Assembly: GCA_947184155.2 (NCBI GenBank)
Contig: CAMXCT020003207.1
Span: 1 to 64,000, forward strand
DNA length: 64,000 bases
DNA from: Cladocopium goreaui
Lineage: Eukaryota; Sar; Dinophyceae; Suessiales; Symbiodiniaceae
Direction: 5' to 3'
The notes beneath the pieces are model-generated. The model worked only from the letters and a program-made list of their open reading frames with translations, searched no databases and was not told the origin of the DNA. This document shows, in pieces, positions 23,250 to 31,297 of this stretch. Within the stretch, counting starts at the first letter, position 1. Every line of letters begins with the position of its first letter. Both the position numbers and the translations under genes were made by a program.

Positions 23250-23334
23250 GTGTAGCACAGCATGTGCGTAGGAACATGGCCATGACGACTTGATTGGCCG
23301 GCAGAAGTGTTGGCTCAGGAAAGCCAACTGAAAA
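23250..23334 (+). repeat. Split direct repeat A1 (left terminus)
   Basis: Begins GTGTAGCACAGC and ends CCAACTGAAAA. Identical over 85 bp to A2. Confidence 0.93.
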
Positions 23335-24088
23335 GGCTGGGTTGCAGGAGCCATGGCGTTCCTCACCCTTCTGCTGTTGCCTCTTGCTCGCGCCGTGCTC
23401 GAGTCTGTAACGCTGCCTACGGAAATCGAACCTTTGGGAGCTTCTGATGCCTTCGATTTCCTTAAGCAAGCCGACAGGCGACGACAGTGCAGCACTGGTG
23501 GAATCGCTTTTGGTCATTTGGGCTTTCCTCCTTTGGTTGTCAGCAGGCTATGATCAAGTGTAGTATCTGTTCTTATCTGTGTGACAACTGATAGGTCTCC
23601 ATCTGGAGACTTGCTTGTCACATCAATTCCATCCTTCTTAACGGCGGTAGTCCTAATTTTGCTCGTATCGGTCACTTGTTCGGCGCTGTGACCGGGATAC
23701 TGTTGACCTTCAAAGCCAGGTTTCGCACCTTTGGCACTTTTCATTTTGATTCGTGAAAATTGTTCAGCCATTTTCTTGTGTGTGCGTGTGTGTTAGTTGA
23801 TGCTGCTCCGCTGTTCCTGTCATCTCCCTTCTCCCTCCGCCGCATGTTGCATGTTTTTTTTTGATTTGTTTTAGTGGCCGCCGTCTTTGGGCACTCACTT
23901 AGTTTTTCTTTTTTTTGATTTTGAGAAGGGTTTTTGACTTCATCTCCATTTGAAAGTTTTTCCCCGAAGTTGGAATGATCCTATGTGAGTCAACATCACC
24001 CTTGCACTTTAACGGCATGTGCAACTCACAACTCATGACCTGATCCATCCATGTTCACGAGTGAGCAATGTTTTCTTTCAAATAGCCC
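23335..24088. other. Leader of the recombinase element
   Basis: No clear plus-strand gene. The minus strand has two short open frames (23771-23514, 85 residues; 23517-23209, 102 residues) whose stop and start overlap as ATGA. The second runs through A1 and is probably fortuitous. Promoter elements could not be identified. Confidence 0.4.
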
Positions 24089-25789
24089 ATGGAGGGCTTG
24101 TGGGATGCTTTGAGAGCGTCAGGGCAGGGACTCCTGGCTAGCACATTGCTGCGCCATGGTGTGCGTAGTGTTTCCGATGTCGCTTTGAAATCCTCCGTTC
24201 TGCAAGAGAATGGTGTTCTCCAATGGCAGATTGAAGCCATTTTGGCGGCGGGGCCCCAGCAGGCGGGGTCCCCAGCCCAAGTGAGGGCTGATTTGCCAGT
24301 TGCCTTTCAGGGGAAGAGGGCAAACCTTTCAGCAGCCTTAGAGGCTGCGCGACCAAATCAGCGGGCTCGCAGTTTAGCCGCCCTTGACGAAGATGTCTTA
24401 GCTCGGAGCACGGCTCCAGCTCACGAGTCACGTCTTCGGACGTATCAGGCTGTTTGCAAGGCTTGGGATCTGGAGCCTTTTCCGCTCTCCAATGAGAACG
24501 TTCGAGCTTTCGCTGCGAGTCTGAAAGCAGGTGGATACAGAAGCGCTGCCGTGTATTTTCAATCCATTTGCTCACACCAAACCAGGCATTTGCACCTTCC
24601 TGTTGACTCGTTGCTTCGGCATGTCATTCGAGACTGTCTGCGTTCAATTTTGCGTGGACTTGGAGCTCAACGTTTAAAGGAGTCCTTCGACGCTATGCGA
24701 CTCAATGATTGCTCTTTCAGTTTTGTCGATGAAGCTTTCAGTTTTGATCAAGTTAGCCACTGCCGAGATCTTTGCATTATCGGATTGTGGTACATGTTAC
24801 GTGAGTCGGAGTTAGCATCAGCTCGGCTCAGTCATTTGACCTTGACTGACTCTGAACTTCGCTTGCTGATTCCAATCCACAAAACCGATTGCTATGGTCA
24901 GCTCTGTGAACGAGTGCTGTCTTGCTCCTGCAGGGTCCGACGACACAATTTATGCGTCTGGCATGCGGCAGAGCGCCACCTCATCAGGTGCCAACACAAC
25001 CTTGGCGGTGGTGATGCAAATAGGTTTCCATTGTTTCCCACTAGCAATGGACAGACTGCCAGCAAGCATCAATTTATCATGGCACTCAGGTCAGTCATTT
25101 CTTTTCTTGGCATTCCACTGGGTCGCAGGGATCCTTCAGGGAAAGACATTCAACGTTTCCACGGCCACGTTCTACGTGTCAGTGGAGCGCAGATGTTGTT
25201 CGCAGCTGGTGTGCATCTACAGCTCATACAGCTGCTGGGGAGATGGACAAGCATGACCATCTTGCGCTACACGCAGCAAGCTGGCCTCAATCTGCTGCCG
25301 AGCATCCCTGATGTGGTGCTGAACAACCGGCCTGATGTTGGTTCGCTGGCGATTGCGCCTGCCGTGGGCCCTCAAGTTGATTCAGATGCGTTGAGCCGTG
25401 CTGCTCCCAGGATCTCAAACGAGTCCTCCAGATCGGGCGCTTCTTCTTCTTCCAGGACCTCGACATCCGGGGACATCACTGCTTTGCGTGCCGAGCTTCA
25501 GATCCTCAAACAAGCAGTGATCAAGCCGCCTGCAGCATATGTCATTCGCTCCAGGTCCAAGATTGTCCACCTGGGCTGCCCGCATGAACTCAGCAACCCA
25601 CCTAGCTCGTGGCGTTCACGGTGTGGATGGGCCTATGGTCAGGCAAACTTTTTGAGGGTCAGTGAGATTTCTGATCCCCTTAGGGCCTGTCAGAAATGTT
25701 TTGATCGGAATGCAGATTCCGGTTCCGATGTTCAGAGCTCTGGTTCGGGCTTTTCTGACCTGGAACCTTCTGATAGTGACAGCTCTTGA
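24089..25789 (+). CDS. Tyrosine recombinase of the retroelement
   Basis: A 566-residue protein. The catalytic set is in order: Arg238 (YMLRESEL), Lys265 (IHKTD), His360 and Arg363 (HGHVLRVSG), Trp386 in the second His position (LLGRWTS) and nucleophile Tyr394 (ILRYTQQ). An N-terminal SAM-like DNA-binding region precedes (AHESRLRTYQAVCKAWDL). After residue 480 comes a tail absent from ordinary recombinases: a Cys/His cluster (GCPHE, RCGWAYG, ACQKCF; Cys497, His499, Cys512, Cys534, Cys537), probably zinc-binding, then an acidic Ser/Asp-rich end. It should integrate the circular DNA copy by strand exchange. The ATG at 24089 follows GCCC and is the first in frame. The gene lies upstream of gag, unlike the usual DIRS order. 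Confidence 0.88.
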   Translation: MEGLWDALRASGQGLLASTLLRHGVRSVSDVALKSSVLQENGVLQWQIEAILAAGPQQAGSPAQVRADLPVAFQGKRANLSAALEAARPNQRARSLAALDEDVLARSTAPAHESRLRTYQAVCKAWDLEPFPLSNENVRAFAASLKAGGYRSAAVYFQSICSHQTRHLHLPVDSLLRHVIRDCLRSILRGLGAQRLKESFDAMRLNDCSFSFVDEAFSFDQVSHCRDLCIIGLWYMLRESELASARLSHLTLTDSELRLLIPIHKTDCYGQLCERVLSCSCRVRRHNLCVWHAAERHLIRCQHNLGGGDANRFPLFPTSNGQTASKHQFIMALRSVISFLGIPLGRRDPSGKDIQRFHGHVLRVSGAQMLFAAGVHLQLIQLLGRWTSMTILRYTQQAGLNLLPSIPDVVLNNRPDVGSLAIAPAVGPQVDSDALSRAAPRISNESSRSGASSSSRTSTSGDITALRAELQILKQAVIKPPAAYVIRSRSKIVHLGCPHELSNPPSSWRSRCGWAYGQANFLRVSEISDPLRACQKCFDRNADSGSDVQSSGSGFSDLEPSDSDSS

Positions 25790-26213
25790 TGTTCTGAAGC
25801 CTCCAGCTGGCGAGGTTCTTGATCAGTGCCAGCAATAGGCATCCACATTAACCTGACTCATGCAACTGATGTGGTTAAAACAAATGCGACCGGCCGACAC
25901 GGTATCCCAGGTGCCAGTCCACTGCATGCGAGTTTACATTTTTGATGTCTTTCATTTTAGACCTGAGACACTGCACATCATTGTGGTACTTTGGCTGCTC
26001 TCCACCAACTGGTAGGCAGGTATTTTGTTTGTTTTGGTTGTGCCACCCCACTTGGTTATTTTTCCAACTTTGGTCTTTGCACAGTTGTTTTTGTGTTGAT
26101 TTGCGACTCATCACGACACGTTAAGTGTTCACGGCAGATCGGTCTTTCAGACACACGTGGTTCGATTTATTATCAGAATTTTGCTGGCCCAATTCCAACG
26201 GTGCCTAGCCACC
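25790..26213. other. Spacer between recombinase and Gag
   Basis: 424 bp without a recognisable gene or repeat. An internal promoter or the end of a separate recombinase transcript could lie here, but no motif supports either. Confidence 0.4.
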
Positions 26214-30873: not shown

Positions 30874-30983
30874 CGGTTTGATTGTGTGGCCTGTGGTGCG
30901 CTCAGGGCGATTTGATCGCAACCAGAGAAAACAAGCAGCATGCCCGTGCACTGCAGTGTCTAGCAAGTCAGAAGCAGCATGTT
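30874..30983 (+). repeat. Split direct repeat B1 (internal)
   Basis: Begins CGGTTTGATTGTGTGG, 13 nt after the polyprotein stop, and ends AGCAGCATGTT. Identical over 110 bp to B2. Confidence 0.93.
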
Positions 30984-31068
30984 GTGTAGCACAGCATGTG
31001 CGTAGGAACATGGCCATGACGACTTGATTGGCCGGCAGAAGTGTTGGCTCAGGAAAGCCAACTGAAAA
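30984..31068 (+). repeat. Split direct repeat A2 (internal)
   Basis: Directly abuts B1 without a gap and is identical to A1. The B1|A2 boundary (CATGTT|GTGTAGC) should equal the joined ends of the circular DNA intermediate. Confidence 0.93.
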
Positions 31069-31187
31069 CCCCCCACACCCAAGCCCAATATCGGGTTTGG
31101 GGACCCTCTTGTTCGATGCAGTTGCAACTGCTGAACTCGATTTTAACATCTTCATTTCTCTATGGACATCCCTTGAGTCACTACGGT

Positions 31188-31297
31188 CGGTTTGATTGTG
31201 TGGCCTGTGGTGCGCTCAGGGCGATTTGATCGCAACCAGAGAAAACAAGCAGCATGCCCGTGCACTGCAGTGTCTAGCAAGTCAGAAGCAGCATGTT
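31188..31297 (+). repeat. Split direct repeat B2 (right terminus)
   Basis: Identical to B1 and separated from A2 by a 119-bp spacer. Its last base marks the right end of the element. Confidence 0.93.

Follow-up and report, generated by a model that had tools for sequence, protein, structure and literature searches.

We analyzed a stretch of 64 000 nt from the dinoflagellate Cladocopium goreaui (assembly GCA_947184155.2, contig CAMXCT020003207.1, positions 1 to 64 000; hereafter the window), which contains a retroelement at 23250-31297. An earlier note had described this region as a complete retroelement with a tyrosine recombinase and split repeats, and the repeats and open reading frames (ORFs) bear out this description. 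A gag gene, an in-frame UAG with a hairpin and a fragment of U2 small nuclear RNA (snRNA) had been overlooked there. The element is built in the order A1, leader, recombinase, gag, pol, B1-A2, a 119-nt spacer and B2, with the following features:

23250..23334, + strand: A1, terminal repeat at the 5' end; 85 nt, 100% identical to A2
23335..24088, + strand: 5' leader (comparison with other copies)
23546..23628, + strand: fragment of host U2 snRNA, 83 nt (Rfam RF00004; 80/83 identical to host U2 nt 19-101)
24089..25789, + strand: tyrosine recombinase, a separate ORF of 566 amino acids (aa) (PF00589, Cre profile match, catalytic residues)
26157..26777, + strand: gag-like ORF, upstream part, frame 0 (97% to residues 1-168 of the relative P0132)
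26620..27435, + strand: gag-like ORF, downstream part in another frame, ending in UAG at 27433-27435 (36 homologues)
27433..27489, + strand: putative UAG readthrough signal consisting of the UAG, GGACAACA and a bulged hairpin (junction alignment, pairing, folding)
27436..30861, + strand: Pol frame, continuing the frame in which gag ends, with DNA methyltransferase (DNMT), reverse transcriptase (RT) and RNase H (ORFs, motif alignment, copies)
27550..28629, + strand: Dnmt3-type C5 methyltransferase domain (profile search; AlphaFold2 model)
28630..30861, + strand: RT and RNase H (RVT_1, [FY]VDD, acidic RNase H positions)
30874..30983, + strand: B1 internal repeat; 110 nt, 100% identical to B2
30984..31068, + strand: A2 internal repeat; 100% identical to A1, abutting B1 with a gap of 0
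31188..31297, + strand: B2, terminal repeat at the 3' end; 100% identical to B1

Our main finding concerns the junction between gag and Pol. In the window copy, the gag ahead of Pol (26157-27435) is split into two overlapping frames. In P0132 (407 aa) and similar relatives gag occupies a single frame, and it is open in 3 of the 4 near-identical copies examined; the window copy is therefore frameshifted, at a position that the comparison with P0132 places near 26705-26720. The gag gene terminates in the UAG at 27433-27435, and its frame runs on into Pol, open from 27436 (1141 aa); counted from a GTG, the Pol ORF spans 27463-30861 (1132 aa), and its first in-frame ATG at 27625 lies behind methyltransferase motif I (27586). 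In 16 of the 17 relatives fetched (L053-L069) we observed UAGGGACA together with a spacer of 8 nt and a bulged hairpin of 13 bp, and Pol is in the gag frame in all 17 signal-bearing junctions, i.e. the window and these 16 relatives. The junctions in these alignments were located through TAGGGACA itself, which makes its identity across them a matter of construction; when gag stops were instead found by translation, TAGGGACA was present in 13/13 contexts taken from a true gag stop (C857 and C4669 are not among them).

The RNA following the window UAG folds with -34 kcal/mol (z -3.78, reached by 0/200 shuffles). For the pairing test, the 17 signal junctions were reduced to ten representatives (nine less than 90% alike over 145 nt, with C2979 added by hand) and the hairpin arms were aligned from the base of the stem. 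Standard pairs fill 126 of 130 hairpin cells, compared to a mean of 97 and a maximum of 122 for permuted arms (0/20000). The far arm was found by ACCCG, so that the four lowest pairs are partly given by construction while the upper nine are not; for these nine alone the count is 87/90 (permuted mean 58, maximum 79, 0/20000). In a MAFFT alignment of nine junctions, three rows of which are partly out of register, 92% of 112 cells are paired, against 34-45% in slid controls, although the structure came from a single one of these nine rows, which favours it over the slid versions. Within this alignment 7 of the 13 pairs are changed on both sides, a number reached by 20/500 shuffles, and the covariation score is 0.436 versus 0.174 in shuffles, none of which (0/500) scored as high. 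Taken together, the shared junction and the paired arms strongly suggest programmed UAG readthrough making Gag-Pol, and the hairpin after the stop codon probably controls the amount of methylating enzyme made.

The Pol protein was compared by motifs and distances in an alignment of 19 rows (the window and 18 of 49 matches). The DNMT and RT motifs that had been named for this frame hold up in it: motifs IV, VI and VIII and [FY]VDD are present in 19/19 rows, and motif I reads FDG in 15 of the 16 rows having that region, with FSG in P0024; the names I-X are those that we take these motifs to have. Four acidic positions, presumably those of RNase H, are likewise present in 19/19 rows. RVT_1 matches the window Pol weakly (E 0.0044) and 7/19 Pol rows at E 0.01, and Pfam misses the DNMT in the window Pol, with PF00145 found in 7/19 rows. 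A profile of the 19 proteins matched DNMT3A at E 2.3e-22, as well as DNMT3B, DNMT3C and, far less strongly, DRM2 (3.5e-6), while neither DNMT1 nor DNMT2 appeared against it up to E 1. With a second Pol profile the E values were 2.2e-20 for DNMT3A and about 1 for DNMT2, and the only RT match was a weak one to 4ol8 (E 0.18), which we take to be a Ty3-type RT entry. By profile search the window DNMT is thus of the Dnmt3 type, and its AlphaFold2 model is confident (predicted local distance difference test (pLDDT) 92.6). The domain is of the C5 type and not of the adenine (DAM-like) type, and further weak C5 or DNA methyltransferase matches were obtained besides.

DNMT and RT distances between the Pol proteins are strongly correlated (r 0.96, 171 pairs, 0/2000 permutations), and therefore both travel together and the DNMT is an old, stable part of the element. 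The relatives are 32-56% identical overall, with the catalytic DNMT motifs kept. In a tree of 37 rows (the window and relatives longer than 860 aa chosen from the Pol matches) the window and P0001 group with P0002 and P0015 (support 88/100, on a branch not starred). Among named proteins the nearest are gene models in the S. kawagutii style, namely Skav223220 (57% over 97%) and the neighbours Skav231579 and Skav231578; the named sources of relatives are such gene models, Symbiodinium sp. KB8, S. natans and Effrenium voratum. Several Pol, recombinase and gag matches lie on contigs of equal size (e.g. 582123 and 42943, which occur in all three lists), and these matches therefore probably share contigs. 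Collections of viral and genome contigs yielded either stretches of methyltransferase from records of viruses or prokaryotes, or no match at all.

For the recombinase, the catalytic residues R-K-H-R-W-Y proposed in the earlier note (R238, K265, H360, R363, W386 and Y394) are invariant in 19/19 aligned rows, comprising the window and 18 of 82 matches. The PF00589 match of the window protein lies below the family cut-off (E 6.6e-5), PF00589 is found in 13/19 rows at E 0.01, and the family profile matches Cre at E 3e-7 over about 50 residues covering the last catalytic part. Six cysteines are also invariant, in one group of C279, C281 and C289 and another of C512, C534 and C537 with H494, and these are perhaps zinc-binding additions.

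The repeats and the flanks of the element were analyzed with respect to insertion. Both repeat pairs are 100% identical and stand in the order A1-B1-A2-B2, as had been noted. A 23-nt A pattern, allowing up to 3 mismatches, occurs in the window at A1 and A2 only (0 expected, 100 shuffles). The internal B1-A2 junction equals the sequence made by joining the end of B2 to the start of A1, and such a match to the joined ends is the expectation for a DIRS-type circle. Further copies with the same A and B repeats, which the earlier note had asked for, were found when the host's own genome was searched (1.166 Gb, 6202 contigs). At least five near-identical copies including the window are present, 99.0-99.8% identical over long matches; of the further ones two are complete (C2235, C1076) and two are cut by contig ends (C491, C921), the C491 match also being without its first 55 bases. 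The other four copies have 60 extra bases in the leader at about 23479. In all three complete copies A1 equals A2; the two B repeats are likewise identical in the window and in C2235, and those of C1076 differ at 1 of 110 positions. No target-site duplication was found in any of the three complete copies (computed for the window, by eye for C2235 and C1076), and their flanks are all different. All three frames are open in at least one copy, and Pol is interrupted in two others. The Pol search of the same genome gave at least 44 matches (41 of 2649 candidates scored); nine further Pol matches have open frames of 1113-1198 aa with no inner stops at 39-46% identity. Beside the insertion lies a direct repeat (31373-31565 and 32706-32897, 88-94% identical, at a spacing of about 1333 nt).

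Next to the coding part, the leader contains the U2 fragment, whose Rfam match RF00004 (23528-23637) scores 63.4 bits versus a gathering score of 46 and is the only Rfam match at gathering threshold within the window. The ends of the fragment are sharp, the right one breaking inside a stretch that we take to be Sm-like. The fragment is found in 5/5 copies with its 26-nt core GATCAAGTGTAGTATCTGTTCTTATC intact in 5/5, and two of the five copies are one base nearer to host U2. Host U2 genes occur in arrays with U1, U4, U5, U6 and signal recognition particle (SRP) RNA. Outside the element we observed 15 U2 matches in 14 further regions; in at least two of these, L042 and L049, genes for other snRNAs are present as well. 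In these 14 other U2-bearing regions no recombinase, gag or DNMT of this lineage was found next to U2, and L045 alone gave a match, to an element resembling the protein P0049 described below. Four regions (L040, L041, L046 and L048) share a repeated segment of 2-4.5 kb that is 96-99% identical and carries a U2 fragment (about nt 35-170); the first 5 kb of L041 contain no long ORF, the longest listed being 216 aa.

Among the relatives, 0/7 upstream pieces of 1.2 kb contain U2; the recombinase start is visible in 3 of these 7, and in the other 4 the leader may have been missed. A U2 fragment as a feature of the whole lineage was rejected on this count, with the leader certain in three pieces, and the fragment appears to be a capture specific to one subfamily. 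Insertion in the manner of a short interspersed element (SINE) was rejected as well, the longest flanking direct repeat being 8 nt in the stretches compared, and a full U2-like snRNA with an Sm-like site and a 3' hairpin was not significant (hairpin z -0.25, 213 nt z -1.80). Very likely the captured U2 sequence is a passenger without a role, a view compatible with readthrough. In its favor, U2 copies and fragments are common in the genome outside the element and the relatives' upstream pieces are devoid of the fragment, although its presence in 5/5 copies with the core intact in all points the other way. Improbable in our view is a dual tuning by RNA, in which the lineage-wide UAG-hairpin would set the dose of DNMT-polymerase relative to Gag and the leader fragment of the subfamily, with its core intact, would act as a U2 mimic that routes or primes the element RNA, by pairing with U6 or a branch-site-like sequence or by drawing U2-binding proteins. 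Among the matches listed from open-licence literature we found no case of a U2 fragment in such elements.

The role of the DNMT was considered with the help of published relatives; the papers cited by PMC number in this text are represented by those parts of them that were accessible. Self-methylation has already been proposed for SymbioDIRS-Dnmt3 elements, and two of their DNMTs methylate CG in yeast (PMC5890265). In our window the observed/expected ratio of CpG is 0.69 in the element versus 0.57 in the rest, so that CpG is not depleted in the element. This ratio gives no support for heavy self-methylation, nor does it exclude it, and depletion would in any case not be expected in a young element or in a uniformly methylated genome. 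It is possible, if somewhat doubtful, that the DNMT does not serve self-methylation and instead acts at another step (e.g. on RNA, capsid or host chromatin) or is inert cargo; either would be compatible with readthrough. Apart from the ratio in the window, this is favored by SymbioDIRS-Dnmt elements likewise being reported to show no significant CpG deficit, and by elements without a DNMT being active as well (PMC5890265). The catalytic motifs are kept in relatives of 32-56% identity, however, and given these motifs and the CG methylation of two such DNMTs in yeast (PMC5890265), inert cargo is unlikely.

Several observations weigh against our overall interpretation of the element, its readthrough signal included, and the CpG ratio is one of them. 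The single-sequence z-scores of the hairpin range from -0.66 to -4.20 and are modest in some representatives, with -0.66 for C4669 and values of about -2 for three others. For C4092 the fold of minimum energy is a different one, and the hairpin is the centroid. One of the 17 relatives (L069) is without the signal, and P0039 fuses gag and DNMT with no stop, although this is a predicted protein whose gene model may include an intron. Because of near-identity among several of them, the 16 relatives count as about ten, an in-frame ATG follows soon after the UAG in some of them, and the frameshifted gag of the window copy means that Gag would be needed from elsewhere. Alternatively, the UAG might truly end gag. 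Pol would then be synthesized on its own, through reinitiation, from a non-AUG codon such as the GTG at 27463 or off its own trans-spliced mRNA, and the hairpin would serve reinitiation or mRNA processing. This fits a GTG 27 nt behind the UAG and the in-frame ATGs of some relatives, and in yeast the gag UGA junction of Candida Tca2 alone directed no readthrough (PMC2194720), a warning that a stop and a structure may not suffice. We nevertheless consider separate synthesis of Pol unlikely: only readthrough needs Pol to keep the gag frame, as it does in the window and 16/17 relatives, 6 of the 14 junctions with a Pol segment shown have no ATG before motif I, and the hairpin stands at the same 8-nt distance in 10/10 representatives. 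The N-termini MTPDNTG of relatives had indicated that Pol begins at an AUGA which overlaps the stop of gag, but this is refuted by the DNA of these relatives. Very probably, then, the element is a young retrotransposon of the SymbioDIRS-Dnmt3 type from a Symbiodiniaceae-like dinoflagellate, which would make Gag-Pol through UAG-hairpin readthrough and insert by way of circular DNA.

Elements of this kind were already published in 2018, while the UAG-hairpin signal and the U2 fragment look new. The earlier note was right that DNMT-bearing retrotransposons of dinoflagellates are known, namely SymbioDIRS-Dnmt3 (de Mendoza et al. 2018, PMC5890265). Its assignment to DIRS stands as regards the DIRS order, the split direct repeats and the C5 methyltransferase ahead of RT-RNase H, but the lineage is not newly unusual. 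The recombinase-first order, singled out as unusual, is the same on one scaffold carrying Skav231579 (recombinase) followed by Skav231578 (DNMT-Pol), and SymbioDIRS-Dnmt3 elements have two architectures with shuffled order and are under purifying selection (PMC5890265). Our element shares with them the A-coding-B-A-B repeats, a Dnmt3-type DNMT in Pol with RT-RNase H, a separate tyrosine recombinase ORF and relatives among Symbiodiniaceae; in contrast, the accessible part of that paper mentions no gag stop readthrough, hairpin or U2 fragment. With PAT-type DIRS elements (PMC4157794) it has in common the A1-B1-A2-B2 split direct repeats, a tyrosine recombinase, an RT and a methyltransferase, but its DNMT is of the C5 and not the adenine type and its recombinase lies 5' of gag and pol. 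Utopia (PMC4640811) is also a retroelement associated with U2 snRNA sequence, but it is of the non-LTR (long terminal repeat) type and inserts into U2 genes, whereas our recombinase element carries a U2 fragment within its leader. Of the features of PAT-type elements of the DIRS order, split direct repeats and integration without target-site duplication are both found here.

The gag-stop-pol arrangement corresponds to the readthrough cassette of the murine leukaemia virus type, where RNA structure likewise stands close behind an in-frame stop. The same holds for Candida Tca2 (PMC2194720). Unlike in these cassettes, the structure here is a bulged hairpin and the carrier a recombinase retroelement of dinoflagellate type, and the readthrough is putative, being deduced from sequence.

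Other methyltransferase-like sequences were observed in the window and the genome. A Copia-like LTR element at 7059-17822 has 300-bp LTRs that are 99% identical and encodes rve and RVT_2; its ORF at 10955-13576 contains a stretch (about 12482-13240) in which PPC and further motifs resembling those of C5 methyltransferases occur. No Pfam, NCBIfam, PHROG or PDB match was obtained for this stretch, and its PADLOC MTase match is weak (E 0.055). Aligned pairwise, it is 31% identical to the first part of P0049, but comparing its profile to that of the Dnmt3 domain gave no support (probability 0.9%), and its AlphaFold2 model reached a pLDDT of only 33. Copia elements of Symbiodinium are reported to be without a DNMT (PMC5890265). 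P0049 itself is another DIRS-like protein with RT and RNase H, whose N-terminus is methyltransferase-like but not of the Dnmt3 type (ELFSGTAG, GPPC, ENP), and a relative of it lies in the same genome at L045:375-3254 (35%). Finally, a sulfate permease with STAS domain occupies a single long uninterrupted frame at 38935-40782.

In the life cycle that we propose, one RNA would serve both as genome and as messenger. Most ribosomes would halt at the UAG and yield Gag, whereas a minority would read through with the help of the hairpin, so that Gag-DNMT-RT-RNase H is made in a set ratio to Gag. The RT would then make circular DNA, which the recombinase would insert without duplicating target bases, and the DNMT may methylate CG in the complementary DNA (cDNA) during copying, as proposed for the relatives. 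The U2 fragment was probably gained by template switching onto U2 snRNA, and its presence in all five copies suggests that nuclear RNA is accessible during copying of these elements. Among the matches listed from open-licence literature, including the accessible part of PMC8226300, none reported readthrough in DIRS or other recombinase elements or in dinoflagellates; as far as these matches reach, the signal would be the first for a tyrosine-recombinase retroelement or a dinoflagellate. The route by which DNMT-RT is expressed is not stated in the accessible part of the SymbioDIRS-Dnmt3 paper (PMC5890265), and the covarying UAG signal offers a testable answer. For annotation, this means that the Pol frames of such elements are to be read as continuations of gag.

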